From: Diacronema lutheri
Taxonomy: Eukaryota; Haptophyta; Pavlovophyceae; Pavlovales; Pavlovaceae
DNA: 64,000 nucleotides
Direction of reading: 5' to 3'
NCBI GenBank assembly: GCA_019448385.1
Contig: JAGTXO010000031.1
Coordinates: 374,501 to 438,500, forward strand
Shown one piece after another: positions 32,954-55,366 of the stretch. A program made the translations under genes and the position numbers. The notes beneath the pieces are model-generated. The model ran no database searches. It saw only the letters and a list, made by a program, of their open reading frames with translations, and had not been told where the DNA came from. Each line of letters begins with the position of its first letter. Position 1 is the stretch's first letter.

Positions 32954-33549
32954 GCGGCGCGTCGGCGCGGCGCGCGGCTGCATCTCGCTTCGAGGCTGCG
33001 GACGGTAGTTTTCCGCCGGTTGAGCGCTTCACGTTGGCGTCAGCTCAAAAACCGCTCGGGCGGGAACTCGGGCGCCCCTTTTCCCGGGGACCTTCCGGCT
33101 TCCGGGCGGATGGACGAAGTCCGTGAGGATCATGGAAAATTCAAGTATAGATGGTCAAGCCAAATCCGATCAGGGGCACGATCGCGCCCCGAGTGCAGCG
33201 CGGGCCGTTCGGAAGGACGTCCTTGTGAGGGAGCTCTTCGCGTTTGGCGAGCGGGGGAGCACGACGCGCAGCGTTGCTGCGGCGGCGTGCGGGCGGCGAG
33301 CAGCGGTCGGGCTGCTCGCGACGAGGCCGGAGCAGACGGCGCCGTGGCCGCCGGCGCAGGTGACGCGCGCCGACGAGCCGTAGCGAGCGTCCGTGATCCG
33401 CACGGCGGTTGGAGCGGGCCGGCTGGTGCGGCGCGCTCGGCCACGGGTGGCGGCGTGCACGGTCGTGCCGCGCGCGGCACGCGTCGCCAGCCGCGCGCGA
33501 CCTGGGCAGAGCCCGCAAAGCGTCGACCGCTGCGCGGCTCGGCCGTGCG
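32954..33549. other. Boundary region downstream of the Fanzor coding sequence
   Basis: About 600 bp between a host gene start and the stop of the polyprotein. I see no protein gene. There is a small AT-richer patch at 33128-33175 and GC-rich, structured DNA on both sides. In known Fanzor and TnpB loci the guide (omega) RNA is made from just 3' of the nuclease gene, so 33100-33550 on the minus strand is where one would look. No scaffold can be recognised by eye. Confidence 0.3.
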
Positions 33550-36285
33550 TCAACGCCGGCCGCGCTTCGGCCCGCGCGCGCTGCCGCCGCCGGCACTGGC
33601 GCTGGCAGCTCCGCGGGCGGGGGTGCGGGCGCGAGAGCCGCCGCCGCCACCGCCGCCGCGCCCGCCGCCGTCGTCGCCACCGCCGTCGCCGCCGCCGCCT
33701 CCCCCGCCGTCATCGTCGTCGTCGCCGCCGCCGCCTCCGTCGCCGTCGCCGTCGCCGTCGCCCTCGCCGCCGCCGCCGTCGCCGCTGCCATCGTCGTCGT
33801 CGTCGTCGTCGCCCTCGTCGTCGCCCTCGTCGTCGCCGTCGCACTCGTCGTCGCAGTCGTCGCCCTCGCCGTGCACCATGCGCTCCTCACGCTCCCACAC
33901 CTCGCCGCGCGCCCACCAGGCGAGCACGAGGGCAAAGCGCTCAGGCGTCGACGTGGTGTCGCGCCCGGCCGCGTGCGCCGCCATGTCGTGCACGTCGTAG
34001 AAGATGTTGCGCGCGGCGTTGTAGTCGCGGTGCACGGGCTTCTTGCCGCCGTTGCACGCCGGGCAGATGACGAGCGCGTGCACCGTGCGCGTGCCGCCCT
34101 TTGCCACGGGCAGGCGCGGGTTCTGCGCGAGCTCCGCGCCGCAGCGCTGCAGCCTGCCGCCCTTGGCGAGCCGCGGCATCGAGCAGTGCATCGACGTGTA
34201 CGGCTCGGGCACGAAGACGGCCGCGACGCCGCGCCGCCGCAGCTCGCGCAGCAGCCCCACCTGGAAGGCGGGCGGCGCGCCCTTGGGCTGCGCGCCCTTG
34301 TGGTCGCGCAGCCACTTGCCCACGCACACGAGCAGCCGGTCGCGCGTCACGCCGTCGACACAGTGCGCCGCGATGAGCGCCTCGGCGACGCGCGCCGCGT
34401 TGGACCGCCCGCCGCTGTCGCGCCGCCAGCGCTCCTTCCGGCGCGCCGGCGCGTCGTACACGTGCTCGGCGGCGCGCTCGCGCACCCGCGCGCTCTCGCG
34501 GTGGAAGGCGATGTATTTGCCCGCGTCGAGCACCTTGGCGCTGTGCGCCTCGCCAAGCCGCGCCTCGTCCGCCTCCACGCTGAACTCCTCGCCGCGCCCG
34601 TCGGTGCGCACGCGCCGCCGCGCCGCGTTGGTCTTGGCCGTCTCGCGCGCAAAGCCCGCGGCGCGCGCGCGCGCGCGCTGCGTGAACTGCCGCCAGACGG
34701 CCGCCCGCCCGACGTGCGCAGAGTAGGTGGTGATGTTGCCCATGTTCGGGTCGGCCGCGACGACGACCGCCGCCTCGACGTCGATCGCCCGCCGCAGCTC
34801 GGAGCCGAGCGCGACGGCGATGCGCCCGTCCGGCCGGCGCCAGCGGTGCAGGACGCCCGAGCCGCCGGCCGGCGCCTGCGCCTTCGGCACGAGGACGGTC
34901 CCGACGGCGTGCACGGCGACGCCATCTGTCACCACCGACTTGACGGGCTGCCGGCCCGGGAGCGGCACGCGCGGCAGCGGCGCGAGGCCAACCCACGAGC
35001 GCCGCGCGTGCCACGGCAGATCGGCCGGCGGCCGCTCGCGCCCGGCGTAGTCGAAGACGCGGTTGGAGATGTCGAAGCGCGTCGCAAAGACCGCGTACCT
35101 GACGCGCACGTCCGACATCGGCGGGGTGTTGCCGTTTGTGCCTGTCCACTTGATCGGCTCGCCATCGTGGTCGCGCAGGTCCAGCGCCTTGAGCCGCGCG
35201 CGCAGCTCCTTGCGCTCGTCATCCGAAAGCGTCACCCAGATGGCGCTCGCGGCGAGGCGCACGTTGCGCGGCACCTGCGCGCAGCGCGCGGCGCGCGAGC
35301 GCGCGGGCGCGTGACCAACCTGGCCGCGGGGCGGCGCGCACGGCGGCGGCGCGCGCGCTTGGGCGCTCGGCGGCGGCAGCGGCAGCCACGCCTCGCGCGC
35401 ACATTGTGCGTGCGCAGCGGCGCCACATTGTACCGCGGCGGCCGTCCGGTCAGCTGCGTGTGGATGTGCGCGAGCCGGCAGAGCAGCGCCTGCCCCTCGG
35501 CCACGTGCTGCAGGGTGCGGATCTGCACGAGGAAGTAGCGCGTCGTGTGCCGGTCGTAGTTCCACCTTTTCGTGGGCGTGCACTTGTAGTCGATCTTGTG
35601 GAGGACCATGTCGGGCAGGTGGCGGTCGAGCGCGGCGGGGCAGCCGACGCGCGCGCCCTCCACGTCGCCGCGCAGCAGCCGCTCGCACAGCTCGCGCACG
35701 CGCGCGTTTCGCTGCATCTCGGGCAGCGCGACGAGCGCCTCGTCGCGCTCGACTGCCGCGCGGACGACGTCGCGGAGCAGCCCGTTCACGACGCGCGATG
35801 GATGCATCAGGCACGCGGTGGACACCTGCGTCGCCTCCGCCTCGAGGATCTCCGTGAGGCCCACCGCGCAGACGGGCTGGACGCCCTCGGCCATCTCGCC
35901 GACGGCGCGCGCCGTCGCCGCCTTGGTCTGCGCGGCGGCTTGCTCGGCGGGCTTGCCTCGGGGCGCTGCACCGTACGTGCTCTCGTCCTTGTGCCAGCCG
36001 ATGGCCGAGAAGATCGCACGGACGGTTCCCTTGTCCATCGTGGTCGACGTGTGCACGCTGGTCGACGGGCCGCCCGACGCCGCGCCGACGGCCTGCGCGC
36101 TCGCCACCGCAGCCTCGTCGCGCACCACCTTGTTGATGACGCGGTACGCCTGTGTCGTGAGCCTGTGCACGGCCGCCGCGATGCGCCGCAGCTCCTTCCG
36201 CGCACCGGGCTGCGCCGTCACCGCCTGCGGCCCCGCGTTGAGCGTCGAGCGCTTGACCACGAAGCCCGGGAGCACGCTGACGCGC
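33550..36285 (-). other. Fanzor (eukaryotic TnpB-like) nuclease region of the polyprotein
   Basis: Begins near VLPGFVVKRSTLN and runs to the stop. Visible landmarks are RuvC-I VVAADPNMGNITTYS (Asp codon 34750-34752), FVPEPYTSMHC holding the candidate glutamate (34204-34206) where Fanzors have their displaced RuvC-II residue, a zinc ribbon with cysteines in MHCSM, QRCGAE and ICPAC, and RuvC-III HRDYNAARNI (Asp 34024-34026). All catalytic and zinc positions are kept. A tail of GAC/GGC codons gives Asp/Gly runs before a basic KRGRR end that could act in nuclear import. TnpB relatives cut DNA guided by an RNA from the adjacent 3' region; Fanzors are the eukaryotic branch. Confidence 0.8.
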
Positions 36286-39200
36286 GTGCGCGCCGTCGCG
36301 CCGCCGGCGGCGCGCGCGCTCGGCGCAGCGGGCTCGTCCACGCGCGCGCGCTCGACGCCGCGCGCGCGGGGAACGCTCGGCGCGCGCGCGCCCGCGGCGT
36401 CGCGCGCGCTCGCGGCGGCACCCGCCGCGGCGCGCTTGCCCGCGGCGCCCGACTCGCCGTGCGCGCGAAGCGGCGCCGACGCCAATGCCGACGCCGCGCC
36501 CGCGCCGCCGCTGCCGCTGCCCGATACGCCCGCGCGCCGCTTCTGCTCGTCGCGCGTCTTGCGGAACTGGGCGACGAGGTCGCTGCTCACGTTGGCCTCA
36601 GGCTCCCACGTGTCGGCGCTCTCGTCGTAGCCCCGCCACCTGATCCGGAACTGGAACGTCACCTTCTTGCCCGCCTTGCGGCGCTCGTCGACGACCGCCT
36701 CGACCTCGTACGTGCGCGCCTCCTCGTCGACGCTCGCGCCCGCCGCGCTCGCGCCCGTGTCCGGCCACCCAGCGACCGTGCCGCCCAGCCTCTCGGCGGC
36801 CGCGCGCAGCTGCCGCTCGCGCTGGGCGGCCGCGGCGCCTCGCGCGACCAGCGCGGGCAGCATGCCCGCGCCGCCCGCGAGGCCGTGCGCGCCGACGCTG
36901 GCGGTCATCAGCGCGTCGAGGCACGCGAACGTTGCGAGCGCACGCGCGCCATCGTCGCCGCCGCGCGGCTGCGAGCGCACGACGGGCGATGGCCGCGGCT
37001 CCCCCTCGGCCGCGAGCAGCGGCCAGATCGCACTGGCCAGCGCGACGGCATGCGCGCCGACCGCGACGGCCACGTCCGCGTCGAGCGGCGCAAAGTCGTA
37101 GCGCACGAGCGCGGCCGGGCGCGAGTCGTCCGTCGGCCGGTCGGCGACGAGCAGCCCGACCGGGCGCGGCGGCTCGCCGGACGGCGCGGCGACGGGCACG
37201 CAGAGGAGCACGACGAGCAGGCGCGGCGTGCCGCCGAGCAGCGCGCGCGCGGCATCCGCCCCGTCGGCTCCGCCGCGCGCGGCCGCGGCGAGCAGCTCGG
37301 CCGCGCGCGTCGGGCCCAGCGCCGTGCGCGCGTCCTTGCGCGCGCGTGCGCGGGCCGTGTACGCGGCGCAGGCGTCGTCGAGCACCGCCGCGCTGGGCGC
37401 GGTGCCAGTCGTCGCCCACGCGCGCAGCGCGTCGCGCACCCGCGTGACGATCGCCTGGTCGACCGCCGCCTCGCCGGCAGCGTGCGCCGGCGCGCACGCC
37501 GGCGGTGCGGCGGCAGGCGCGAGCGCGGGCGCGCCGTCGGCGCCGTCAACGCCGACGGCGCCGTCGGCGCGCCGCCACGCGAGCTTCGCCTCGATCTGCT
37601 GCCGGACGGCGTGGCAGTGCCGGTCGATGCCGCGCGCGTCGTCGAGCGCGGCCAGCGCGTCCTCAGCGGCGGGACGGCCGCTCGCGTCCGCGACGGCCTG
37701 CAGGCAGAGCAGCGCGGCCGCACGCGCGTTGCACGCGCTCTGCGGCTCGGGCGCGAGCGCGAGCTCGAGCTCGAGCGGCGACGCGCCTCGCGCCGCGGCG
37801 ATCGCGTCCATCAGCACGTCCAACCGCTGCACCAGCGCCCTGTGCGCGTCGCGCGGCGCGCCCGTCGACGGCGCGCGCGAGCGCGTCGCCAGGAGCCCGA
37901 GCGCGCGCGCCGGCGCGCCCGCCGGCGTGTGCAGCACGAGCAGCGCCGCGCCCGCCAAGCTCGCGTTGCGCGTGACGAGCGCGAAGATGCGCGTCGCCTC
38001 GTGCGCGCCCACCGACGCCCAGATCGCAGCGCGATCGGCGTCCGTCTGCGCGTCGCACAGGTCGCGCACGTCGTCCGGCGCGAGCAGCGCGCCGCCGCCG
38101 GCGGAGCGCGCGACGATCGCCCGCGCCTCCGCCACGAAGACGGCCTGCGGCAGGTCGGCGTGGCGCGCGTCGACGATGGCGCGCGTCGCGTGCACGCCGA
38201 GCTCCACGCCGCGGTAGAAGGCGCGCGCGTTGGCCGCGCGCGCGTGCGCCGGCCGTCCGTCCGCGTTGCGCCTCGCGCGCGCCTGCTTGCTCGTGCGCGC
38301 GAGGCCGTCGCGTGGCGGTGGCGGCAGCGTGGCGAGGAAGCGCGCGGCGGGCGGCGGCGCGCGCACGCCGCGCTGCCGCCGTGCGATGGCCGCGAGCCGC
38401 CGGCCCGCCGCGCTGCCGCCCGCGCCGACGTGCTGCCGGCGGCCGAGCGCCGCCGGTGGCGGCGGCGGCGGCGGCGCGGCGGCGGGCGGCGGCGCGGCGG
38501 CGGGCGGCGGCGCGACGGCGGGCGGCGGCGCGGCGGCGGGCGGCGGCGCGGCGGCGGGCGGCAGCGGCGGCGGCGCGGCGGCGACGGCAGCACCAGTCGG
38601 CTTGTCCGCCCACGCACCCGAGACGCTGTCCCAGGCCTTGCCCGGTGGCGCGCGCCCACGCGGCCGCGGGTGGCGGGCTCGAGCGGCGGGGGGCGGGCGG
38701 CCGGCGCGCCAGTCGAAGACAGGTGCAACCGTGGCGGCAGGCGCCGAGTGCAGCGCGTCGGTCACAGAGCGCGTGGTGCGCGCGGCGACCGTGGCGCGCA
38801 TGGCGGGCGGGCGGTGAGCAGCGCCCGCCGGCGCGCCGGCGGGCGCGGCAGCCGGCGCGCCGGCGGGCGCGGCCGCCTCGAGCCCGGCGGAGGCGCCGCG
38901 CTTGCGCTTGCGCGTGCCGCCGCGCGTGCGCCTGCGCGCGCGCCCGCCGCGCGCCCGTGCGGCCTGCGCGTCGCCAGCCGCGTCGCCGGCCGCGTCGCCG
39001 CGCCGCACGTAGACGATCGCGAACGCCTCCTCGCCGGTCCCGTCGACGCCGCCGCGCGCGCGGCGTAGGACCGACCGCCACTGCAGCCGCCGCGCGCGGC
39101 CGGGCTCGCACGCAAACCAGCGCCCACCGCGCCTGACGACGGCCACAAAGTCGTCGTCGCGCCGCCCGCGCCGGCGCGTGCGCAGCAGCACGCACTGCAC

Positions 39201-42200
39201 GTCGAGCCAGCCCTCGTGCCAGTCGGCCGTGCTGGGGGCGACGCGAATCGACTGCGGGAGCTCGACGCCAAAGCCGGCGAGGCGCACGATGTGCGCGACG
39301 ATGACGCTCGAAATGGCGGGGGCGCTCGACGGGTCGTCCGCTGCAGCGAGCACCGCCTCGCCCCAGTGCTCACGCGTGACGCAATCCGCGTCCTCGACGT
39401 GCACGTGCGCCACGCTCGCGCCGAGCTGGTGCACCAACGCGCAGATGTCGGCGTCGACCGTCCTCTCCTCCTCGGCCGCCTCGGCCGTGCCGCGGGCGGC
39501 GGCGTCGCCCGCCGGCTGCCCGAGGTACGCGATCGCCCGCTCGACGGCCGCGCCCTCCGCACGCGCTGCGCTGTCGATCGCCGCATTGCCGACGGGCGCG
39601 CGCAGCGCCGCGATCGCGTCTTGCAACGCCGTCGCGTCGCCCGTCGCCGCCGCCGCCGTCACCGCCGCCGCGCTCGCGGTGCCGTGCGCGACGGCGTGCA
39701 GCGCGGCGGCGCGCGCGGCGGGGATGCGCCCGTCCAGCGCGAGCACGAGCGGCGGCCCGGCCGGCGTCTGCTGCCGCCGGTGCCGCCGGCTCGCAGCCGG
39801 GTGGTCGGCGCGCGCGCGCTCGAGCCGCGCGCGCCGCTCGACGACGCGCGCCCAGAAGGCCTGCACCCTCGGCTGCGCGAATGCAAGCCAGCCGGCGCCG
39901 CGCGTCACGACGTGCACGACGATCCGGTCCTCGTGCCTGAGGTACTGCACGTAGAGCGCTTTGCTCACGCCGAGGACGTGCATGCCGAGCTGCAGCTGAT
40001 CGCGGTGCGGCTGCGGCGGCCCGTCCTCGTGCGCCGTGGCGCCCGCCTTGGTGAGCGTCTTCACCTCGACGAGGACCTGCTCGTTGTTTTCGGGGAGGAT
40101 GGCGAGCCCGTCCGGCGAGAAGGCGAACGGCGCGCTCTTGTCGTGCGGGTCCGCACGCACCATCGGCAGGTTGCACACGACGGTGATGCCGTACGCGGCC
40201 GCCAGCTTGCGCAGCGCGACGGCCTCGCCGAGGATGCCCGCGGTCGTCGCCTTGGTCCGCACCTCGCGCCGCCGCCGGTGCACGTACTCGTCGGTGAGCG
40301 TCTCGTGCGCGACGCCGGCGTTGTCGTTCACGACGTCGCCAACCTTGCTGCCCGTGACCTCCTCCCATCGCTCGTCGTGCCAGCGCGGGCTGCGCTGCGC
40401 GGGCGCGCCCGCGCCGACGGCGTCGAGCACGCGGCGCAGCGCTGTGCCGTCGGGCGCAGCAGGCACGCGCGCGCGGTCCTGGGCCTCGCGAGCGTCGAGG
40501 ACGCAGCCCGTAGTGGAATGTTGGGGTAGGTCGAGCTTGCTCGCCTCGCCGTAGCGGCTCTCCAGCTGGCGCGGTGCGTCGGCAGGGCCGCCGTCCGTGC
40601 GCGCACCCGACGCGCCCGCCAGTGCACGGGGCGCAGCGTCCGAGGCGCCCGCCGCGCCCGCGCCGCCGCCAATCGCGCCAGCGCACGCGCGCGCCGCGAC
40701 CTGCGGACGGCCAGCCGCAGGGACCTCGTCCGCTCGGCCGGCCGCTGCGTCGGCCGTCCGCTTGGCCACCTCGCGCACGTCTCCGAGCGCGAGCGTGGCT
40801 GGCGCCGTCCAGCTCCCGTTGCGTTTGTCCCAAAATTTGAGCAGCCCGCCAAGGAAGGGCGTGCCCGTCGGGCGGTCCTCGGGCACCTCCGCCAGGATCG
40901 CGTCGACGCGCAGCGCGGCCGCCACATCGCAGAACGCGCGCGCGGCGCGCGCCATCCGCTCGGCGCGCGCGCCGCCGTCGTCCGCCGCGCGGCGGATGGC
41001 GTGGCTCACGTGCGCGACGCGGAGCGAGACGACGGCGTGCGCCGGCGCGTCGGCGCCCGTGCCGAGCGTGTGCCGCCGGATGGCCAGCTGCCCATCGCCC
41101 ATGCGCGGCGGCAGCGACGCGCACGCCGCGACGGTCGTCGTGCCGGCCGCGCTGTCGCACAGCCAGCTCGCCTCGCCGCCGCCCGCAAACTCAAAGGTCG
41201 CGAAGCCCTCGCGGCCGAAAAGCGCGACGAAGTGGTCGAGCACCGCCTTGTTGATCGCGCGCGCCGCCGGCCGCGTCGATGCGCCGCGGGCAGCGCCACC
41301 CGCCGCGCCGCGCGCATCGCTGCACGTCGCAGGGCAGGTGCAGCCGGACGCGCGCACGCCGTCCGACCGCGTCCGCGGCAGCTCGAGCTCGCGCACCTTG
41401 GGGCAGAACCAGAGCGGGTTGGACGCCTCGAGGCACAGCACGACGAGCCGCCCGTCCGTGCCGGCCAGCGCGCGCGCGTCGCGCAGCAGCTCGACGGCGA
41501 GCTCGGACGTCGCCGCGTGCACCGCCGGCTCGCCCGTCGCGCGGTCGGGCGGGAAGAGGCCGCCGCCGACGAGCGGGCTGGGGCAGCGGCCGAGCATCAC
41601 GAGCAGCGGCGGCGGCGGCGTCTGCGGCGCCTGCTGCCCGACCGCAGCCGCCGTCAGCCCGGCCAGGTCGGAGCTCGTGCGGAGGGCCTTGAGCGCGACG
41701 CGCGAGCCGGTGCCCGCCTGCTCGGAAAACGTGGCGAGCATGGCGCACGTGCTCGCCCTCGCGCCGCACTGCCAGCTGACGCGCGCGAGGAGGCCTTCCA
41801 GCGTGTCGTTTTCGCGCGGCCGCGTGACCGCGTCGAGCGCCGCCGGGCCGAGCTGGAGGCTGCCGGGCGTGACGCACAGCACCGCCTCGTGGTAGGCGCG
41901 CAGCAGCTCCCTCGGCAGCTGCTCGGCGGGCGTCGCCGCCTGCTCGCCCACCCACCGTACACCGTGGCCGCCGTCGCCCGCGCCCGCGAGCCGGACCGCC
42001 GGCCCGCCCGTGATCGCCGAGGTCGGTGGCGTGCCGAGCGCGTCGACGAGCGCGCGCACGGGCGCGACACGCCTGCGCGCAGCGTCCGCGCCGACGGCGA
42101 GCGCGGCGATCTGAGCGCCCTCCCATGCGCGCTCCCTCGCGTCGTCCCGCGCGGCCGCCGGCGCGGCGCCCGGCCGCGCGCCGGGCGGCACCGCGCACGC

Positions 42201-44091
42201 CGCCGCGACGACCTCCGCGCGCGCGCCGGCGGCGTCGGGCGCGTGCAGCTGCGCGAGCGCGCCAAAGAGCGCGGCGGCCGAGCGGTAGCGGCCGTGCGCC
42301 GCGACGAGCGCGTAGAGCACGCGCAGCGCGGCCACGCCCGCCTGGTCGGGCGCGTCGCCAGCGATGCGCCCGACCTCCCACGTGCGCGTGGGCGGCGGGC
42401 TGCCGTCGGCCGGGTCCGGACGCAGCGCCCACGCGCGCTCGACGATCGCGTTGAACACGTCGCGCGCGGCGCCCTCGTCAAACTCGGCGGCGCCCGCCGC
42501 GTGCGCGCACCACCCGTGCACGCGCGACGTGGGCGCATCCACGGCGCGCTGCACGACGAGCACCGCCGGCCGGTCGACGCAGCCGAGGCTCACCGCCGCG
42601 TGCTTGCCCTCGAGCAGCGCCGCCGCCGCAGCCTCGACCAAGGCGTCACCAGGCGCGTCGCCGACGACGACGGCACAGCCGTCGCCGTACTCGGCCTGCA
42701 TCGCGGCGACGCACGACGCGACAAAGTCGCCGCCCGCGGCCGCCGCGTGTCGCGCCGCCAGCATCCGGCGCGCGATGGCAAGCCAGACGTACTCGGCCGG
42801 CGCGCGCGCGGCGCGCGCGCGAGGCGCGCCGGCCGCGCCGCGTGCGCCAGCGCGTGCGCCTCCAGCGGCCGCAACGGCCGAGGCGGCTGGAGCGGCGGTG
42901 AGCGTGCGCCGCGCGCGCTTCGCCGGCCGCGCGATGGGCGATGCACCCGCCGTCGCACCGCCCGCAGCAGCCGGTGCGGCCGCCACAGCGCCCGCCGCGA
43001 CGCCACTCGTCACGACGCCCGTGGCGGGCGGCGCGGCGTCGGACGCGGCCGCCTCGACGGGCGTCGCGCAACTACCGCCAGCGGTCGCGGACGCGCCCGG
43101 CGACGCGTCGGCGAGGAGGTGGCGCAGCACGCCGCGCGCGAGCGCGACTCGCACGGCGAGCGTCAGCGCGCGCAGGCGGTCGGAAGGCGAGGCGTCGCGC
43201 TCGGCGTCGGCGGACGTGGCGGCAGCAGGCGGGGCGGCGGGCGGCGCGGCGGCGGACTGGGCGGCCGCCGGCGCAACCTCGTCGGCCTTGGCCAGCCAGA
43301 CGAGCCCGGCGACTGCGAGCACGACGCTGTACGCGCCGACATCGTCACCCGCAACGCGCGCCAGCCGGGCGTGGGCGTCGGCCTCGGACACGGCGACGCG
43401 GAAGAGCACGTCGTCGCGGGCAGCTTGCTCGGCAAACTGACGCAGCTGCTTGGCCATCGTCACGCCGGCGACGCACGCCTCGCCCGCCTCTGCCTCGACC
43501 TGCTCGTCCTGGCCGATGGCGGACGCGCCGGCCTCGGCGCCACCGTCGAGTGTCCGGCGGCGCTCGAGGGCAAAGCCACGCACACAGACGCTCTGGAGGC
43601 CGCCGAGCGCGCCCGCCTTCTCGTGCAGCGCGCACGACAGCTCGACCACCGAGTCCACGCGCGTCGCGGCGGCGCCCCCCCGCTCGCCGCGCGTGGGCGC
43701 GCGCACGACGAACACCGTGAATTGCGCGCGCTTCGCCGCGCGCGCCGACGCGCACGCGTGCTTCAGGAGCCGGCAAAGCGCGGGCCTTTGCGCCGCTGCG
43801 CCCCGCGTGCACAGCAGCAGTTGGCCGCGCTCGTCGCCCAGCTCCTGCTCGACGGCGGCCTCGAGCGCGTCGTCCGTCAAATCGCCGTGCTCCGTCGAGG
43901 CGAGCGCGCGCGCAGCCGCGAGCGCCAGCTCGCCTGCGCCCGCGCGCCGCCGGCGGCGCGCACCGGCGGGCGCGTGCGGCGCCGACGCGTATGACGACGC
44001 CGCCGCGTCCGCGCGCGCACACGCGGCGCGCAACGCCTCACGCGCCGAGGCGGCCGCGCGCGCCCTGGGCGCGAGCCTCAAGAACGTGCGC

Positions 44092-44178
<87 letters not shown>

Positions 44179-47100
44179 TCGCCCGCGTCGCCGGCCGGCG
44201 GCGGCGGTGGCGGCGGTGACGGCGCGGCCACGGCGGCGGCAGCAGCGGCGGCGGCGGCGGTGGCGGCGGCGGCGGCGCCCAGCGCGGGCGGCGGCGGCGT
44301 GGCGGCGGCGGTGGCGGCGGCGGTGACGCCAGCGGCGGCCTTGGCGACGCGCGTCTGCGGCGGCGCTTCGGCGCGATCGGGGCTGCCCCCGCCACGCACC
44401 GCGCTCGTGCCCGCGCAGACGCCGCCCGGCGCACGATCGCTGGCCGCGCCGGTCAGCGCGACGCGGAGGCGCTCGCCGACAGCGTACATGTCCGCCACGC
44501 TGAACGTGCGCGGCGCGGACGAGCAGCCCGCCGCGGCGAGCGCGTCGTTGAGCGCGCCCACTATCGCGAGGCCGCACGTCGCGCCACGCTGCGCCGCCTC
44601 GTCGAGCAGCCGCGCGCGGCGCACGCGCGAAATGTCGAGACCCGCCGCGTGCAGCGTGGCAGTTATCGCCGTGGCGAGCACGAGCGCCCGCCTGCAGGGC
44701 GACGCGAGCGTGTCGACGAGCACCGCGTCGTAGCGACGCTCGCCCGCGCGCGCGACGCGCACAAGGCGCAACGCGGTGAAATGGCCGGAGGCGAGCTGCG
44801 CGCCGTCGTCACCGCCCGCGCCGCCGCGCTCGTCCGACGGGCTCCACACGCCGATGACAGCCTGCGTCGTCGCCTCGCTGCGCAGGCGGTGCAGCAGCGC
44901 GGCGCGCTCGGCGCCGTCCTGGAACACCGCGGGTTGCGCGGCGAGCGGCACGTGGCAGACATGCCCGCCGCCGGCCTGCCCGTGCACGCGTAGCACGACC
45001 TCGCAGCACGCGTCGACGGTTGAGGCGAGCATGTCGCCGCTGGCGATGCGCTCCACCTCTGCCTGCGGGAGGCCGGCGCTCGCGGCGGCGGAGGCCAGCC
45101 GGCGCGCAGCCGCGTCGCCCGCCCACGCAAGCAGCGCCGAGTTGGCGGGTTGGAGGGGAAGCTCAAGGGCGGCTGGTTCGGTGGCGGTAGCCTCGTTGGC
45201 AACGGGCACGTTGGCGGTGCGCACGTTGGCGGCGGGCGCGGCGGCGATGGCTGGTGGGGCGGAGGACACGCCCGCGGCGGCAGGCGCGGACGCGACAGCG
45301 GCAGCGGCTAGCGGGGCGGGGAAAACGCCGTCGGTGGCTGGCGCGGAGGCGAGTGCAGGAGCAACTAGTGGGGCGGGAAAATCGGCGGCAGGCGCGAAGG
45401 CGGATGCAGCAGCGGCTAGTGCGGCGGGGAAAACACCGTCGGCGGCAGGCGCGAAGGCGGATGCAGGAGCGCCCAGCGGGGCGCAGAAAACACCGTCGGC
45501 GGCAGGCGCGAAGGCGACAGCAGCAGTGGCCAGTGGAGCGGAGGCGCAGGGCCACGCGCGCGCCAGCCGTGCAAGCCCAAGCCGCGCGCGAGCGACGCAC
45601 GCGCCGATGGCCGAGGCGGCGGCGCAGGCCACGACGTGGCCTGGCACCGGTGTGGCCAGCCGCTCGCGGGTGTGCACGTCGAGCCGCGCCCCACGCCAAG
45701 AGCGGCGGCGCGCTGAACGGAGGCGCGCGACCCCGATCGATCCGCCCGCGCACGCGCGCGCCGGCTCAGTGTGGCCAACGCGCGCCGCTATGCAAGGCGC
45801 GCGCGCGATAACGGCGGCTGTCGGCCGTGGCGTGCGCGTGGCGGCGCCGCGGCGACGGGCGCGGCACACGAGCCGCTCGGGCGCGCCGCCGCCGCGCGGC
45901 ACGATGTCGAGCAGCACGGTCACGCCGCGCGCGCGCGCGACCGCCGTGCACGCGAGCCGCACGGGCAGCGGCGGCCCGTCCGGGCGCGCGAGCGCCGCCA
46001 CCTCGGCGTCGGTGAGGCTGTGCAGCTCGCGGCGCGCGCGCGCGAACGCGGCGATGTCCGCGCGCAGCTCCGCGTCCGTGCCGAGCGCGGCACGCGCGTG
46101 CACGGGGAGCGACGCGCGCAGCGCGTGGAGCACGCCGCCGCGCGCGCCGCGCGGCGCCGGCGCGCGCTCGCGCTCAGCGCGCGCGGCGCGCGTGAGCTCG
46201 CGCACCGCGCGCGCGAGATTGCGCCGCGCGGCCGCGACGGGAGGGCTAGGTGCGCGCGCGCGCCGGTTGTAGCGCGGCCGCGCCGAGTCGAGGGGCGGCG
46301 GACGCGGTGCGTACGCCGCGGCGCGGCCCGCGCGCCAAAAGGCCGGCGGCGGGCGCAGCTCCGTCGCGTCGACCGCGGCCGCGAGCGCGCCGAGCGCGGC
46401 GTCGCTGTCGCCCGCCGCGTCGGCCGCGTCGACGAGCACGAAGAGCGCGCCGAGCGCGCGCGACGCGGCCGCCTGCGCGGCGGTGGGGCGGGCGCAGGCA
46501 GCGACGCATGCGGCCGCCATGCCGCGCGCCGCGGCGAACGCCGGTGACGTGACGGCCGCGCCGATGGCAACGGCGGCGGCGGCGACGGTCGAGGCGGCAG
46601 CGCCGGCGATGGAGGTGGCAGCGGCGGCGGCGCTTGCCATCGCGCGGCGCGCGAGACGCGAGGCGCCACCGACCGCCGCCGCCGCAGCGCGCGCTGCGCG
46701 CGCGCCGGTGGCGCGCATCGTCGCCGCGCCAGGCGCCGCCGCGCCGACGCCGCCGGCGCCCGCGCCGTCGCCGCTCTCGGCCGTGCAGGGCTCCGATGGC
46801 GAACCCGGCGTGCGCTGGCGCGTGATGCGCGCGCCGAGGCGCGCGCTCCGCGCCGCGCGGCCGGCGACGTCGAGGAAGCGCCGTGCGCGCGCCGCGCGCA
46901 GGCCACGCGCGCGCGGCGGCGCACCGACAGGCGCCGAGCGCCGCGGCGCGCACGCCGGCGCGTCGCTGTCGGGTTGCGCAGCGCGCGCGCGGGAACTCGG
47001 CGCGGCGTGTGCGGGCGGCGGGCGCGCGCCCGCGCGGCGCAGAGGCGCGAGGCGCCGGCCGCAGACGAGGCGTGTGCGCAACCAGGACGGCGAGGGCCGC

Positions 47101-50100
47101 AGGGCGCCGTCGACGTCGCGCATCGGCGGGCCGCGAGCCCGCCGCGCAGCCGTGCGGCGCGCGCGAGGCGCTCGGCGGCGCGCGCGCCGCACGGCGCGCG
47201 CGGCGGCGCGCACGCCAGCGACGGCTGCGGCCACGCCGCGCGCCAACACGGCCGCGGCGTGCGCCATCGCACCGAGCACGGCGCGTGGCGCGCCGAGCAA
47301 GCGCAGCAAGCGCGACGCCGTCGCGCGCGCCGGCGCACCGTGTGCAGGGGCCTCGCCAGCGCCAGCACCGACGCCGCCATCGCCGCAGCCGCAGGTGGCG
47401 TCGCCGCCGCCGCAGGCGTCGCGACGGACGCCGCCGCCGCCGAAACAATCGCCGCACACGTCGCCGCCGACGTTGCCACCCCAGCCGCCGTTGCGTGCGC
47501 AGGTGGCTGCGGCGCGTGCGTGCGGGAGGCGTGCCGTGCGGCGCGCATCACACGGGCTGCGCGACGCGAGCGACGCCGCCGGGGTCCCCGCTGCGCCAGG
47601 CGCGCCGTGCGCGCCAGCCTCGCCGGCCTCGCCGGCGCGCGGTCGCGCGCTCGCCTCGACGTGGCCGCCTCCGCCGCCATCGCCGCCGTCGAACCGGGCG
47701 GCGGAGGGCTGCCGCTCGAACCGCTCGTCGGCGTCGGCCGCCACCGCCGCCTCGCGCTCCGCCGCCGCGGCGGCCGCACGGCGCGCGTGGCGGAGCGCGC
47801 GGCCGCCGTCCGCTGCGCGGCGTGGCGGCGCGGGCGCCGCCTTCGGCGCGCGCGGCCCCTCGGCGCGCTCGCGGAGCACGGCGAGCGGCGTGCCCGTGGC
47901 GACGCTCGTGCAGACGCGCCGCAAGGCGGCGCTTACGCACGCGTGGACGACGCGCGCCGTCCGCTTGTCGGCGGCGCGCGCGGCGCGGCGCGCGGCCTTG
48001 GCGGCGGCCTTTTTGGCGCGCCTCCGCTCCGCCTGCTCCGACAGCGCGCGCGCCTGGCGCTCGGCTGCGAGCGCGTCCTCGGGCGAAACGGTCGGCCTCG
48101 GCGGCCGCGCGCGCGCGCTGCGACGCTGCGCGCTGCGGCGGTCGGACGGCGGCTGCCGCGGCGGCGAGGACGGCGGGCGCGAGCTCGGCGTGGGCGACCA
48201 ATCGCCGCTGACGGTTGCGAGCGGCGCAAACGGGTTGTCGTCCCCGCGCCCCGCGGCGTGCGACAGTGCACGCGGCGTCGGGCGCCGGCCGACCGCTGGC
48301 GGGCCCCACTCGGACGGCGGCTCCGAGGGCGAGCGCGCCGTCGGCGCCGCGCGTTGCGCGGCCGGCGGCGCCTCCCGGTCCAGCGCCGCCTGCTCTCTCG
48401 CCGCGGCCTGCTCGTCACCCTCCGGCACGCCACGCGGCGCGAGCACCGCGGTGGCGCAGCGCGTCGCGTTGAGCAACGCCGCCTCCATCTGCCGCACGCT
48501 GGCCTTGGCGCACGCCACACCCTGTCTCGCCCGGCGCAGCGCCTCGTGCGCGCGGCGCACTTCCGCGTCGGCATCTTCGCGCATGCCAAAGTGCGCCTGT
48601 TGCAGCCGCAGGTCCGCAGGGCGCCCCTGCGCGCGAGGGGCACGGGCGCGGCGGCGCGCAGGTGACGGAGCTGGCGCGCCGTTCTGCGCTGCGCGCACGC
48701 CAATCGACGGGCGCGCGCGCGGCGGGGCGCGCGCGCGCGCGCGCGCGCGCGCTGCCTACCCAGCCGCCGGCCGGCTCGCGCGAGCGCGCCAGCTGCTCCG
48801 CCGCCTCGGCGTCGAGCACGCGCTGCTGCGCCTCCTCCTCGCCCAGTGCAGCGAGGTGCAGCCGGCGGGCTGCCTTGCGGCAGTTGCCCTCCGCCTTGCC
48901 CACGGCCTTGCGCGCCGCGTCGACGGGGTCGTCGTTGGCTCTGGCGCGCCTGCGCTTGCCCTTGTCGGCGGGCGGCGGCTCGGCGCGCTGCAGCGTGCCG
49001 AGCGCGTCGTCGGCTCCGCGCGCGGCCGCCCGCGGGCGGCGGGCCCCAAAAAGCGCACCGGTCGCCGTGCGCGCCGCGCAAGCAACGACCAGCGCTGACA
49101 TGCCGGCGAAGACCGCACCGCCCAGCGCCACGGTTGCCACGATGCGCAGCGTCCCGTGCGCAAGCTGCGCTGCCTCCGCCGCTTTGGCGGCCTCGCGCGC
49201 GCGCGCATCGGCGGCTCTCATCTCGTGCAGCAGCCCGGCCGCGCCGCTCGCGCCGTCGCGGCCGCGCGCGAGCTCGCACAGCACCGCCGCCGCGCGCCGC
49301 GTGGGCTCGCGCGCGAGCAGCTGCGCGCCGCCGTCGGGGCGCAGCTTCTCAACGAACTCGACAAACGTCGCGTCGCGCCAGAGGGACATGCGGAAGGCCC
49401 TGTGCACCGCCCCCTCCTGCTCGCGCATCCGCCGTGCCGCCCGCCTGCCGTCGCGCGCGTGCGCGTGCGCGGCCGCGTCGACTCCCGCGACGCCGCGCTG
49501 CGCGTCGCGCGCGGCCGACGACGGCGCCGCCGCGCTGCCCGCCAAGGGCGCCGCAGCGGCGACGCGCGCGTGCGGAGCGACGGGATCGCCGGCGGCCGGC
49601 GGCTCGGCGCGCTGCGGCGTGCCGTTTGCTCCGCGCGCGGCCGTCCCGGGGGAGGTGGCCGCGATGGCGCCGCCAGCCGCGCCGCGCGCCAGCCACGCGC
49701 ATAGGCTGCCGACGAGCTCGCCGAGACCCCCGACGGTCGCCGCGGCGGCGAGTGCGCCGGGCTTGCCGGCCGACAGCGGCTCGCGAGCGTCGTCGTCGCA
49801 GCCGCCGGCACCCGTCTTGGCGAGTGCGTCGCGCTCGCCCTCGACGCCCGCCACGACCGCCGCCCCTCCGTCGTCCGCCGCGCCGGCCGCGCGCGCGGCC
49901 GGGCGCAGAGGAGGCGTGCCGGTGCAGCCGTCGCCGCTCGTCTTCGCCGTTTCCTCCACTTTGGTCACTTCGTCGCCACCTGCGCCATCTCCGACGCCGG
50001 GGCCCTTGGTCACGCTTGCCGCCATGCGCGCCGTGCCCGCCGGCCAGCCCGCCGACTGCTCGAGCGCGGCGGCGAGCGGCGCGACGCGCGTCGACTCGGG

Positions 50101-52434
50101 CGCGCTCTCGTCATCGGGCTCGAGCGCGTTGTGCAGGCGCGCGAGCGCGCGCTCGACGGCCGCGGCGCCACTGCCGGGGGCGCGGCTCGCCGCGCGCACC
50201 GCGCGCCGCCAGGCCGGCGCGAACATGAGCGCCGGCTCGAGCGCCGCGAGCGCGCGCGCCTCGCGCGCGTCGCTCGCGCCGAGGCGCGGCGGCACGCGCG
50301 CGGCTCCGCGCGGCGCGGTGCCTCGGAAGCGTGGGCTCAGCGTGTAGGCGAGGTGCTGCGGCACGCCGCGCGCCTCCGCGCGCGCGCGTCCGTCCTCGAC
50401 CTCGCGCCGCGCCTTCGCGATCGCCGGCGTGGCGCGCGCGAGCCAGTCGGGGTCGGCGGGCAGGTGGATCACGACGAGAATCGGCGCCCAGTCCAGCCGC
50501 GGGTTCTTGTGACGGTCGGGCACGACCCACACGAGCAGCACCGTGCCCTCCGCGCCGCACGCCGCCTCGTAGATCCTGGGCTGCGAGCGCCAATCGGGCC
50601 TGACGCGCAGCGCCCGCGCGTGGTCGATGGCGGCGGCGCGGTCGCCATTGAAGTGAACCGTCGTCACCTCGCCGATGACGGACCGGCCGGACCGCCAGCA
50701 GAACACCGCGTCCGCCGACCCGCCGGCGATGGCCGCGAGCGATTCGGGCGCGGCGAGCCGCGGCAAGCCCTCGAAGGCGGCAAAGTCCTCGTGCGCATTG
50801 TACACGCCGCCCCAGCCGTCGTGCGCGTACGCGCGCGCGGCCGCTCGTACCGCGCGCGGCTGGTTCTCCACGCCCGACGTCATGTGCCATGTCGTCCCCG
50901 CGAAGCCGGGCTCGCCCAGCTCGGCCCGCACGACGGTACCGTACCCCGCGCCCTGCGTCGGGGCGGCGAGGTGGTGCATGCCCGCGCCGGTCACGCCCTC
51001 CGTGCGCTGCCGCGTGACGATCGTGCCCGTCGCGTGCGCGAAAAGCGTGTCGACCACGGCGGGCGCGCGCCCGCTGTTCGCCCGTGGCCGCGCCCTGCCC
51101 GCTTTTAGCTGCTCGGGGTCCTTGGCGTCGTACACGCGCGCGTCCGCGTCGCCCTCATCAGGCGCAGTGTAGACGCAGCGGCGTTCGAGCGGCGCCGAGC
51201 CACCGCCGTCCGCCGCCGCCGGCGAGGTTGGCGCCGCGCCCGCCGCCACCGCGCTCGTCGCCGCCGTGCCCGTCGCCACCGCCGCAGCCGCCGCGCCCGC
51301 GGGGTCGTCGTCCCCGTCCTCCGCGCCCTCCCCGTCGTCAGCGGTGGTGGCGTCGCCATCGTCCCCGTCGCCCTCGCCCCCGCCGAGGCTGCTGAATGGT
51401 CGGGGCCCCCACGCCGAGGCGGCGCGCCGCTGCGGCGCACGCGGCGGTGGCGCTCGCGACGGCGGCCTTGGCGCCGCCGCGCCGCGCGGCCTGGCCGCCG
51501 TCGACAGCGCGCGGCCTGCAGCGCCCGTGAGCGCGTCGAGCGCGGCCGTGCGTGCGATGCGGTCGTCGGGCGCGCGCAGCGCCGCCTCGACGGCCTGCAG
51601 CAGCCCGTCGGGCGCGGATCCGCCGACACTGGCATCGCACGCCTCGGCGAGCCGCGCGGCCTCGGCGAGCCGCGCGGCCTCGCGGGTGAACGGGCCGAAG
51701 CGCCTGGCGCGGTCGCCGAGCAGAGCGCCGATGGCGGCGCGGAGCGTGCGCGCGCGGGTCTCCTCGTACGCGGCCGTCGTGAGGCGCGCGAGGCGCGCGT
51801 CCAAAGCCTTCTTGATGTCGACAAGGACACTCGCGCGGCGGCCGTAGAGCGTCGATGCGCTCGCCACGACCTCGGCCGCGACTGTTGCCGCGGCGAAGCA
51901 ACACGCGGCCCCACTCTGCGGGGGCGCCTTGAAGGCATCGATGGGCGGCGCTGTTCTGCCGATGCGCTGCGCAAGCTTCTTGATGAGCACGCCGGCCGCC
52001 GTGGCGTACGCCGATTCGCCGTTGCCCAAGGTGCGCGAATCGGCGAGCAGGGCGAGCGCGGCGCCGGGCGGCGCGCCGCGCTGCGCGGGCGGCGCGAGGA
52101 GCAGGTACGCCGCCGTCCAGTGCACGAGGCCGCTGGACGCGCGGAGGCAGAGCGGTAGCACGACCACGAGCACCTGCCCAAACCGGTCCGCATCCGCGCA
52201 TGCTTTGCGCAGGTTGCGCAGCGCCACCTTGAGCGCATGCTGCGAGCACCCCGTGTCGCCCACCCTAACCCTGCTCGTGCCGAAATCCGCGTAACGCAGC
52301 AGGGCGATGAGGCAAGTGGATGGGACCACGTGGGGGTGGGTATCTCCCGGCGACAGAATGGTGCTGAGGGCCAGCGAGAAACTGTCCGAGCCGCCCCGCC
52401 CGCCGGGCAAAGCGTCCTTCACGGAGTCCTCCAT
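33550..52434 (-). CDS. Giant polyprotein: C48-like protease, YqaJ nuclease, chromodomain, Fanzor
   Basis: Exons complement(33550..35274, 35403..48626, 48760..52434), two 128- and 133-bp GT-AG introns, both phase 0, predict about 6,207 residues with no internal stop. Domains: C48/Ulp1-like protease (His105-Trp, Asp132-Ser, Gln173, Cys178 or 179); a low-complexity acidic region; a hydrophobic helix near 1100-1125; a second C48-like module (GHFTALRLV near 2507, GATCGLAIVGAL near 2575); poly-Ala near 2704-2736; YqaJ exonuclease 3967-4146; chromodomain 5194-5254; Fanzor about 5339-6207 with RuvC residues Asp5808, Glu5990 and Asp6050. The protease may process the chain; that is inference. Whether it is one mRNA or several genes (for example one starting at the ATG 48584) needs RNA evidence. 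The coding strand is uninterrupted, unlike its neighbours. Confidence 0.75.
35275..35402 (-). other. 128-bp intron inside the Fanzor region
   Basis: Donor follows codon Asn (AAT/GTGCGC), acceptor GCGCGCAG/GTG. It joins THN to VPRNVRLAASAI in phase 0, restoring one continuous Fanzor frame. Without removing it, the upstream frame ends at 35232 and the Fanzor C-terminal half is in another frame. Border sequences resemble host introns. Confidence 0.65.
36535..36725 (-). other. Chromodomain segment of the polyprotein
   Basis: The segment runs from YEVEAVVDERR through FQFRIRWRGYDESADTWEP to VAQFRKTRDEQ. It has the aromatic cage residues (Tyr, Trp of RWRGY, Trp of DTWEP) and the glutamate-proline turn typical of histone-methyl-lysine readers. 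In retroelement integrases such domains direct insertion to heterochromatin. Here it lies between the YqaJ and Fanzor modules. Confidence 0.85.
38460..38590 (-). repeat. Ala/Pro-coding (GGCGGCGCG)n repeat in the polyprotein
   Basis: A GGCGGC/GCGGCGGGC array encodes alternating PPPAAA on the minus strand. It is a flexible linker just upstream of the region with GVDGTGEEAF and downstream of the YqaJ module. Confidence 0.6.
39885..40400 (-). other. YqaJ/lambda-exonuclease-like nuclease segment of the polyprotein
   Basis: Motifs of this PD-(D/E)XK family appear in order: SPRWHDERWEEVTGSK at the start, a GILGEAVALRKL helix with the first acidic residue, FSPDGL (Asp), VLVEVKT (the E-x-K pair) and HRDQLQLGMHVLG (the Q-x-Q helix). 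Such nucleases chew 5' ends to make single strands for recombination, and often travel with viral or mobile replication genes. Confidence 0.82.
44098..44190 (-). repeat. GGC trinucleotide repeat encoding a poly-alanine tract
   Basis: About 30 GGC/GCC units encode poly-Ala on the minus strand, with more Ala/Gly-rich triplet sequence up to about 44330. It separates the second C48-like module from the downstream half of the polyprotein. Confidence 0.85.
45260..45545 (-). repeat. Imperfect tandem repeats encoding APAADGVF units
   Basis: Four to six units of 60-70 bp with the peptide theme SAFAPAADGVFxAPLxA. They lie in the low-complexity zone before the second C48-like module. Copies are diverged, so older than the 189-bp array at 28 kb. 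Confidence 0.65.
48627..48759 (-). other. 133-bp intron joining the two halves of the giant reading frame
   Basis: Donor GGCTGG/GTAGGC, acceptor GCGCGCAG/GGGCGC, phase 0 on both sides. It joins a Lys/Arg/Ala-rich helical stretch (AEAAEQLARSREPAGGW) to a similar one (GRPADLRLQQAHFGMR), so the coiled-coil character continues. If not spliced, the two frames would be separate overlapping genes. Confidence 0.5.
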
Positions 52435-54335
52435 CTGCAGACTGTGGGCACGTCAGTGTCCGGATGGCGGCCCGGATGATACTTGGGAGAATTTACATGA
52501 TGCCCTGGAGAATGCCCCGCTCTCCCACAACCAGGACCCGCCAGCGCGCCGAGCCTACTCGTTTGCCCGCGCCGCCTCTCTTTGCGCGCCCGAGCGCGGC
52601 CTCCGAGCGCGGCCAACGTCCTCCGGGGGCGTGCATCGTGGCTGCTCGGAGGGGCTGCGACGCGGCGAAAGCTCGCTGCGCGGCCGCAACGTGAGCGCGC
52701 GCGCGCGGCCGCGCGCCGGCCTGCGCTGCTCTGCACGGCCGCGCGCCGGCCTGCGCAGCCTCGTCGCGCAGCGTGAGCGCGAGCGCGCGCGAGGTGAGCT
52801 CGGCGGATGGGTGCGCGGCGGCGTTGGCGGCGGGTGCGGCGGCAGGCTGGGCGGCGGGTTTGGACGGAGAGTGTCGGGGAAGAACGGGGCGCATCCTGGC
52901 TGGGAGTTGGACGGCGCCCACCACGCGCTGGCGGATCCTGGTTGCCACCACCACCCCCCCCCCCCCCGGAGACGAGGACCAGGGGCATGGCCGACTCGCT
53001 GCGCCGCACAGCGCGCGGCGCGCGGCATGCTGCGCGACCTCAAGCACATCCAGCCGCGCTCCGCCCACGCAACGCGCGCAATGCCGCGTTGCACTGCAGG
53101 TGTGCACGTGCGGCTCTCACGCGCACTGTGTTGCACGAACGGCATCACGCCACCGAGCTGCGTCCGGACCACGCGCCGCGCGCAGGCGACCACACAGGGG
53201 CGCGCCGCGCGGCGCGTGCGCGCCCTCGCAACCGTTGCAGCACGCTCTGCCTTGCACTGCGCCGAGCCGCCGCGCGCTGTGCGCGTGCATGCAGGGCGCA
53301 CGCGTGCGACGAAGCGCGCGCGCGGCGAGGCGCGCGGGCGGCTCGCTGCGCGGGCGGCAACGCGCCCAGCTGCGCCCAGGCCAGGCGCGCGCCCGCGAGT
53401 GCCACCGGGACGCACTGCCCCCGCCGGGGTCGCCGCGCGCTCTGTGTGTGCGCTCGCGCGCTGCGAGCGCGGCGGAACGTTCGTGCATGGCGCGAAGAGC
53501 GCGGCACCCGAAGACGGCTGCCCCGAGCCCGCGCCGGGTGGCAGCGAGCGGCGGCACCTCCTCGGCGAGCCCGCCCCGCGCCTTCCCCTCCACGTGGCGT
53601 TTTGAGGCAGACGGACACGCGCCCACACTGCGACTGGGCACGCTGCTCGAGGCAGACACGCACCCAACGCGCGCGCACCACGCGCCCGCGTCGGCGGGCC
53701 GGTGTGAACGAGCGAGAGCTCGGTGTCGCCAACGGGGGCACGGGCGCGACTTCGGTCCGCCTCTCGACGGACGCAGGCGACGCTGCCGGGAACTTCCCCG
53801 ACGCCTGCACATCCAGGGCTTCGAGGTACAGAGCTGGGCAACAGTGCCGCTCGTCACCGATGAGGCGGCCAAGCTCGCTATCCTTGCTGCCCTCGGCTCC
53901 ACCAAACAGCCGGGCGACCCAACGGTTCGTGATCGCCTGGCCGCCAGGTGCGAACCGCGCCCGTGCAAGCGCTTCACCCGCATTCTCCGCCCCGCTGCGG
54001 ACGTCCGCCTGCCGGCCGCGAACACGGCCGGTGCGCGTTGCCGCCTGGCCCAACACGAAAACCCGCCCGCCCCCGAGGCCGCAGGTCCTACCTGCCCAAG
54101 CGCAGCCCAACGGCACGCAGACAGCCCGCCTTGGCAACCGACTCGTGCGCGAGCGCTCCGCCCTCCACAAGAGCCTGCCCCACGCCACCGCCGACGCGGA
54201 GCCAGCGCAGCCGACGCCCCTCCGCGACGCTCGCGCCGCAAGGCGCAAGGGCCCCGGCGAGACGGCGTCAACCAAGCCCGCCGCTGGCACAGCGCCGGCA
54301 CCCGGAGCCCACCCCAAGCCCCCGCGCACGCCTCG

Positions 54336-54366
<31 letters not shown>

Positions 54367-54768
54367 ATCGGCGGACCGATTGCGTTTTGGTGCGCCAGGC
54401 TCAATGCGCCATCGCAGTGGCGGGCCCGCAGACGCAGACGCTGACATGCCCAACGCTGGGCACTGAGGCCGCAGGCCGGCCCTCCTGGACCTGGCGGGCG
54501 AGCTGCCCGCGCAGCGGCCACGCGAGCCTCGCACTGACCGTGGCGGTCGCTGCCACCGTGATAGCTGCGGGTGCGGCGGCCTTGGCCCCAACCCCATCAT
54601 CCGTCTTCATCCCCGCCCTGCTCGCGCTCGCGGCCTACGTCGGCAATCCCTGCACCGGGATCCGCCCCGCGAAGTCCACACAAGACTTATCCGTGCTGCA
54701 CGCCAGCCGCGCGCGCCGACGCGCGCCGCTCCCACACGCTCACCTCCGTTTCCGCGGGCGGCCCAACG

Positions 54769-54802
<34 letters not shown>

Positions 54803-54880
54803 CCCCCCCCCCCCCCCCCCCGGCAGGCGGCCATCGAGCCGCATTAGCACACCCGCCCGGGGCCTCCCGCCGCACCCGCA
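52435..54880. other. Gene-poor stretch upstream of the polyprotein
   Basis: I see no convincing gene. About 52440-52510 is AT-richer than its surroundings and directly upstream of the polyprotein ATG, so it may be its promoter. The rest has poly-C tracts (about 52957-52969 and 54336-54365) and long meaningless open frames. A plus-strand stretch near 53830-54010 reads as mixed-composition peptide but matches nothing I know. Confidence 0.35.
54769..54820 (+). repeat. About 50-base poly-C tract
   Basis: A run of C broken by a single T. It lies shortly upstream of the retroelement-like fragment. Long G/C homopolymers of this type recur in introns and intergenic DNA across the window. Confidence 0.85.
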
Positions 54881-54889
54881 GCGGCTCGG

Positions 54890-55071
54890 CGCCTTGAATC
54901 CTCCCGTCCCCCGGGGTGAGGCCTTCAACCCGGGCCCAGCGCGCTCCGACTGCCTCACGCGCGCCAGCGCCAACCTCGGCGGCATGGTAGACCCCGAGCG
55001 AAAAGCCGCACTTCTCGCCGTCCTCGTCAGGCGCAAGTACGTTATCCTGCTCCTACTGCCGACGCGGCTCC
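54890..55071 (+). mobile_element. Fragment resembling the start of a non-LTR retrotransposon endonuclease
   Basis: The plus frame reads VPRGEAFNPGPARSD, then RASANLGGMVDPERKAALLA, then a VILLLLPTRL strand. The pattern of a conserved NPGP, then N-x-x-G, then KxxxLxxLL and a hydrophobic strand ending before acidic residues matches the N-terminus of APE-type endonucleases in LINE ORF2. Nothing recognisable follows past about 55160, so it is a truncated relic. Opposite orientation to the flanking element genes. Confidence 0.35.
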
Positions 55072-55362: not shown

Positions 55363-55366
55363 TTGT

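Follow-up and report, generated by a model that had tools for sequence, protein, structure and literature searches.

Fanzors are the RNA-guided nucleases of eukaryotes, and the element described here bears on the question of how they serve the transposons that host them. A nuclease gene beside the right end, with the motif conserved on the left and the flank variable on the right, is the layout in which TnpB-type nucleases recut the empty site; IS605 elements have a conserved motif on the left only and make no target-site duplication (TSD). Transposons of eukaryotes that bear Fanzor1 have been described (Bao & Jurka 2013, PMC3627910). In the passages of that source on the Chlamydomonas Helitron2 elements CRe-1/2/3, these are described as non-autonomous and as inserting after TTTT, with TSDs of about 7–19 bp in many copies. 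For the giant DNA transposons of brown algae, the transposase gene is reported to be often pseudogenised, implying mobilisation in trans (PMC12477816). The assembly of Diacronema lutheri comprises 103 contigs, the longest of 3.042 Mb (PMC8379373), and the strings ‘transpos’, ‘Fanzor’ and ‘polyprotein’ have no occurrence in the main text of that genome paper. The EukProt record P0005 (Pavlova lutheri) carries the name of this species; it may not be a transcript and is left out as evidence of expression.

The window, by which we mean the whole stretch of 64,000 nucleotides that was analysed, holds at 33145..64000 on the minus strand a mobile element of 31,032 bp, counted from the first to the last fixed base. 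Its left (5′) end is at 64176, 176 bp past the window end in the same contig. Similarity to the other copies breaks off abruptly on both sides, at 33145 and near 64184. The core of the YqaJ domain was scored in 150 copies among 236 candidates, 148 of which had no stop inside it. The exon-1 piece 50155-51444 was scored in 98 copies, again among 236 candidates, and all 98 were free of stops; the Fanzor exon was found at 76 scored places among 455 candidates, 99–100% identical and never interrupted by a stop. We read the element as having amplified very recently in Diacronema lutheri, to well over a hundred near-identical copies. If the 98 scored exon-1 copies were all full length, they would add up to some 3 Mb and so to about 7% of the assembly.

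Within the element, stop-free minus-strand frames extend over 52452-48415, 48755-35232 and 36597-33550, where a preliminary description of this DNA had placed them. Joined via two proposed introns they give 1,225 + 4,408 + 574 = 6,207 codons. The run 48755-35232 stays open for 4,507 codons. Sixty first-order Markov sequences, simulated from the composition of 35232-48755, had longest ORFs of 857 codons on average and of 1,222 at most. GC contents at codon positions 1/2/3 were 0.79/0.64/0.90, 0.82/0.66/0.91 and 0.78/0.57/0.95 for the three frames, a pattern of the coding-sequence type in all three parts. Thus, the frames are real, and the long run far exceeds chance and is no by-product of the 80% GC. 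The main part of the polyprotein (exon 2, 4,408 codons) lies at 35403..48626, with the first ATG of its frame at 48584, and 104 of the 150 scored copies retain an open frame no shorter than 4,000 codons. The first part (exon 1, 1,225 codons; 48760..52434) contains no recognised domain, only an H...D...C pattern seen by eye near its start, and of the 7,994 candidates scored in a search for its homologues not one reached E≤0.001.

The preliminary description had claimed four domain types for this chain and had called for profile searches, which returned both a YqaJ-type (PHROG) and a Fanzor (Pfam TNB) match. The YqaJ/RecE-type exonuclease domain at 39822..40409 was identified by a PHROG RecE-like match (6.2e-15), by an NCBIfam lambda-exonuclease match below its cut-off (3e-5), and by tblastn against 20 coliphage records at 27–28% identity (best E 4e-5); the gene name in most of these records is a tail or structural protein, and in two a putative endonuclease. 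In Pfam, YqaJ scored below the cut-off in the window copy (0.031) and above it in one other genome copy. The domain contains GEA, SPDG, VEVK and Q motifs, which we take to be those of the YqaJ family; SPDG and VEVK supply the D..ExK core that, together with the profile match, places it among the YqaJ/lambda-exonuclease proteins. A structure model of this domain (pLDDT 41) was too poor for fold comparison. Closer to the C-terminus, a chromodomain at 36558..36710 (residues 3973-4023 of the exon-2 frame) matched Pfam Chromo at E 6.5e-12 (45.6 bits against a cut-off of 25.1) and 48 PDB sequences at E≤0.001, the best being 2dnt (2.4e-11).

The Fanzor occupies the end of the chain. Its C-terminal half (33553..35274) carries the RuvC-like D..N, E, C4 finger and RD features followed by a low-complexity acidic tail, and matches the Pfam Fanzor/Cas12f profile Cas12f1-like_TNB above the cut-off (1.7e-6). 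A regular expression for the published motif D-x(125,275)-[TS][TS]xx-C4 zinc finger-x(5,50)-RD, as defined in PMC3627910, also found its match in exon 3, with the zinc finger coded loosely as two cysteines with spacing. Three homologues are 46, 44 and 39% identical. Against the PDB, the Fanzor exon gave no significant match (a Cas12f1 at E 0.31), and its structure model (pLDDT 43) was too poor for use. The segment 35403..36272 is presumably the Fanzor N-terminal half, assigned by its position and resemblance, no profile having matched it. Past the Fanzor stop the element continues for only about 405 bp; this right end (33145..33552) comprises the stop codon and some 400 nt up to the element 3′ end ...GACCATCTATAC. 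A scaffold for a Fanzor guide RNA could lie here. The predicted fold of the right end is not unusual (z-score -1.5), and Rfam returned no match.

The fourth domain type, a C48 protease, lacked support at any threshold tried. In Pfam, no protease family appeared at E≤1 in the three frames or at E≤10 in ten pieces, PDB searches with the H...D...C-like pieces returned nothing relevant, and neither a profile match to Peptidase_C48 nor one to a solved C48 (Ulp1) structure was obtained. With Pfam and PDB negative, the basis left for an embedded protease is the H...D...C pattern seen by eye, and we rejected this candidate; no profile backs the proposal that such a protease processes the polyprotein.

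The two GT-AG introns by which the frames had been joined fared differently. Intron 1 (48627..48759) is doubtful on sequence grounds. It holds a GC-dinucleotide tract whose length varies among copies, and in the 20 copies fetched there the status of the frame tracks that length. Because of this variation, the exon-1 frame runs on unspliced for 3,752–6,136 codons in 6 of the 98 scored copies; in the other 92 it measures 1,170–1,505 codons. In four of the six run-on copies, the exon-1 match and the YqaJ match reported equal frame lengths, so that exon 1 and YqaJ share one uninterrupted frame of 4,864 to 6,136 codons. Either intron 1 is a true intron, and tract length would be irrelevant, or the chain would be continuous in a minority of copies and made as two proteins in the majority. 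At the 3′ side of intron 2 (35275..35402), inside the Fanzor, lies the annotated start of three homologues, which coincides with the opening codon of exon 3. Annotation of the near-identical copy P0001 begins four codons deeper, though the window frame is open upstream, and the homologue starts may for this reason be gene-caller choices. A conserved intron at this position would fit the homologue starts and is weakly supported by them.

Comparison of copies revealed two classes on the 5′ side: among 20 sampled, 14 belonged to class a, that of the window, and 6 to a shorter class b. One class-b copy was read across. In place of 45139-55411 it has about 2.4 kb of unrelated-looking sequence, whose N-terminal coding part has no Pfam match, and its frame is open for 4,090 codons despite this different N-terminus. 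The last 4.7 kb of this copy are identical to the window except for one base. Farther upstream, five gaps (3, 3, 5, 1 and 36 bases) separate classes a and b, all in or near low-complexity sequence, with those of 5 and 1 lying 12 bp apart, and the frame stays open. Between the classes, pN/pS was 0.60 in 45137-42600, and the two blocks that follow, where changes are few, gave 1.4 and 1.7; L001 showed 9 synonymous versus 29 non-synonymous codons and hence no constraint. That class b, in the one copy read, keeps the frame open through a different N-terminal part adds to the support for a single giant frame holding YqaJ, chromodomain and Fanzor. As side observations on copy structure, the spacing of end matches on C3, C5 and C9 suggests copies of ~26 kb (e.g., C9:1904137-1930219) and so a third class between 31 and 21 kb, and 61314-61809 is inverted in class-b copies relative to the window.

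Upstream of the polyprotein the element carries two further genes, likewise on the minus strand. An open frame at 55819..57312 is ubiquitin-specific protease-like (UCH/USP; Pfam UCH 4.3e-8), with what we take to be the Cys and His boxes in one frame. A PIF1-family helicase gene has approximate limits 58411..60740 (Pfam PIF1 1.8e-24 and 2.6e-15, Pif1_2B 6.2e-13); a Dda-like helicase match (1.6e-5) is to this same gene. In the window copy it is split over two frames by Pfam, and over a third by eye. The word ‘intact’ in the preliminary description thus holds for the polyprotein frames and not for this neighbour, which is broken into at least two frames. None of the six class-b copies that were sampled has the stretch matching 59095-58759, a part of PIF1. 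Other profile matches were sub-threshold (RES 0.026, Cse2 0.066). Both genes, like the 31-kb repeat context of at least 150 copies, had been overlooked in the preliminary description. Pfam recognised no transposase or recombinase (HUH, tyrosine, serine or DDE) in the polyprotein and 20 other ORFs of at least about 130 codons, the PHROGs and NCBIfam transposase scans covering fewer frames. The scanned frames likewise yielded no TnpA serine recombinase or Y1 transposase that would place the element with IS607 or IS605, and no reverse transcriptase, RNase H or integrase.

The junctions are asymmetric. On the left, TATATA[C/G] is present in 23 of 27 junctions and CTATATA plus one base stands at the edge in 20 of the 27 (L032 and L075, whose left ends are missing or truncated, are excluded); the heptamer TATATA[C/G] is absent from both strands of window positions 1-33000. 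On the right, 48 of 50 junctions have TATAC; L025 does not, nor does L006, which lies at a contig end. There is slight variation in the left motif, which finishes with C or G in both size classes (class b: G in L033, C in L044; 30-kb copies: G in L064, C in L063); CTATATA[C/G] is therefore read as the target sequence, and the right TATAC as the element's own. Among 26 paired copies (L073, whose right flank is cut by the contig end, is left out), a target duplication was found in one, the copy at C9:2907684 (L060, L028), where 13 bp are repeated beside TATAC on both sides. Shuffled flank pairings shared words of at least 13 in 5 of 520 cases, from repeats, and the 13-bp duplication is credited because of its position at both edges. 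The element thus lands immediately 3′ of the TATA-like motif CTATATA[C/G], in most cases with no duplication of the target. At nt 40-57 the 5′ end contains an 18-bp palindrome, and a subterminal hairpin is predicted at the 3′ end; the two end regions share no exact inverted repeat of at least 8 bp. Terminal inverted repeats with a TSD of constant length, by which DDE elements are recognised, were not found, a TSD occurring in 1 of the 26 pairs. A search with the flanks of the 26 pairs against all sequence fetched found no clean unoccupied site.

Several features of the flanking DNA deserve mention in their own right. The 14-mer GCGYCGTTAGTATA occurs 426 times in the genome, with 0 occurrences of the reversed-pattern control. 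When up to 2 mismatches are allowed, 6 of 27 left flanks (L033, L047, L065, L071, L072 and L073) have it right at the insertion edge and 6 of 50 right flanks have it no more than 150 bp away; it is possibly a preferred landing repeat. Window positions 15706-18465 consist of about 51 repeats of a 54-bp unit lying within long plus-strand open frames, 28136-28839 holds 3.7 copies of a 189-bp tandem unit, and 24371-25457 and 26129-27194 form a direct repeat of about 1.07 kb at 97% identity. Another copy of the element, L026, is bordered by a 99% match to the stretch 27823-28715.

We favour, with moderate confidence, the following account. The locus would be a giant, recently amplified DNA transposable element that encodes a very long polyprotein with a Fanzor at its right end, and that spreads by Fanzor recutting and recombination copying. 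The polyprotein, of about 4,400 to 6,200 residues and perhaps processed, would carry a YqaJ/lambda-exonuclease-type domain within and a chromodomain–Fanzor unit at its end, the ubiquitin-protease-like protein and the PIF1-type helicase being made separately. A strand-transfer enzyme, residing in an unrecognised domain or supplied in trans, would move the element. The Fanzor, guided by an RNA that starts in the right end and extends into the flanking DNA, would cut unoccupied sites next to the left motif, and the exonuclease and helicase would promote copying of the element back by recombination. Recombination and break-induced replication are both modes of copying to which a 5′–3′ exonuclease and a PIF1 helicase would be suited. 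The chromodomain may steer the nuclease to marked chromatin, such as that with methylated histones. SpuFz1 recognises CATA (PMC10432273), and CTATATA would be the candidate counterpart. What the sequence itself shows is the ends and copies of the element, its frames, the identities of the domains and the asymmetry of the junctions. In a bolder version, which strikes us as distinctly unlikely, the polyprotein itself would mobilise the element with no dedicated transposase, through a chromatin-tethered RNA-guided cut at CTATATA and copying driven by the exonuclease and PIF1.

Other explanations account for parts of the same evidence. It is possible, if doubtful, that we are dealing with a non-autonomous giant Helitron-type (rolling-circle) element that carries PIF1 and Fanzor as cargo and uses an HUH enzyme in trans. 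The PIF1 helicase domains, the 18-bp 5′ palindrome and the predicted 3′ subterminal hairpin would suit such an element, and the mode of insertion, next to the 3′ side of a short invariant motif and in most cases with no TSD (a 13-bp duplication in 1 of 26 pairs), resembles that of CRe-1/2/3. However, of the Rep/HUH-plus-helicase pair that characterises Helitrons the scanned frames contain PIF1 and no Helitron_like_N, whose sole match in the genome lies on C63, a contig without scored element copies; where Helitron2 elements have asymmetric terminal inverted repeats and hairpins at both ends, the two ends here show the palindrome and the predicted hairpin and share no exact inverted repeat as long as 8 bp; and PIF1 families are generally known outside Helitrons too. 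Somewhat less probable is that several genes stand in a row (one for the exon-1 protein, at least one in the long frame, and the Fanzor), their frames joined by chance or by length variation in GC-rich DNA. This would explain why the exon-1 frame stops before exon 2 in 92 of 98 scored copies and why the exon-2 frame has its first ATG at 48584, but it sits poorly with 4,507 stop-free codons that far exceed chance and bear a coding signal in frame throughout, with the long frame of the class-b copy and the at least 4,000 codons kept in 104 of 150 scored copies, and with the four copies that hold exon 1 and YqaJ in one frame of 4,864 to 6,136 codons.

That the locus is an integrated virus or virophage-like element appears improbable. 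Giant polyproteins, RecE-type nucleases and helicases are common knowledge for viruses, and Fanzors occur in viruses as well (PMC3627910). Against this, the scanned frames held no capsid, packaging ATPase or DNA polymerase family, IMG/VR scans gave 12, 1 and 13 pattern matches with no confirmed relative, and at least 150 near-identical copies with fixed ends across the assembly are better accounted for by a transposon. Least credible of all, to the point of being nearly negligible, is an assembly artefact that inflates copies or frames: 18 of 26 left and 20 of 26 right flanks match only their own locus within the sequence fetched, even though the PacBio subread N50 of 23.458 kb falls short of the element length (PMC8379373), L008 and L009 have a right flank in common, and some contigs end at the element 3′ end. 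Contigs C1, C12 and C43 begin or end at this point or a few bases from it, presumably because reads were shorter than the element.

In the transposon that we favour, the Fanzor, joined to a chromatin reader and coupled to an exonuclease of recombination, belongs to an amplification burst of very recent date. The proposed roles of guide and left motif lend themselves to direct tests in a cultured alga, given dozens of near-identical insertions whose left motif is conserved and whose right flank is free.

How does this element relate to the systems described so far? As in CRe-1/2/3 (PMC3627910), the mobile element of an alga carries a Fanzor and inserts 3′ of a fixed short motif, full-length copies mostly lacking a TSD. 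In those elements, as that source presents them, the Fanzor is a gene of its own, whereas here it is the C-terminal part of a reading frame thousands of codons long that also holds a chromodomain and YqaJ, in an element of 31 kb; the target motif and the ends differ as well. With the TnpB-bearing IS200/IS605 and IS607 elements (PMC10711439) it shares a nuclease gene and a candidate guide RNA at the right end. Its junctions recall the asymmetry of IS605, the motif being conserved on the left and target duplication rare, but it is eukaryotic, measures 31 kb and revealed no TnpA of either kind. ISL2EU is likewise a eukaryotic transposon encoding a YqaJ exonuclease-domain protein (PMC4482050); the DDE transposase, terminal inverted repeats and TSDs reported for it in that source were not seen here. 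In length, there is a parallel with the giant DNA transposons of brown algae (KDZ, EnSpm and Sola-1; PMC12477816), which exceed 10 kb, in some cases 30 kb, and bear extra genes. Those belong to known DDE superfamilies, and neither ‘Fanzor’ nor ‘YqaJ’ occurs in the text of PMC12477816. A chromodomain as an accessory to a mobile-element polyprotein is familiar from LTR elements (PMC6338049), from which the present chain differs in that no reverse transcriptase, RNase H or integrase was recognised. YqaJ, chromodomain and Fanzor in one frame were not found together in the open-licence PMC literature searched. The preliminary description had spoken of a new type of element organisation, and leaving aside processing by an embedded protease, which no profile backs, this is plausible: Fanzor transposons, YqaJ in ISL2EU, chromodomain polyproteins and giant algal transposons are each known, and what would be new is their combination in one frame.
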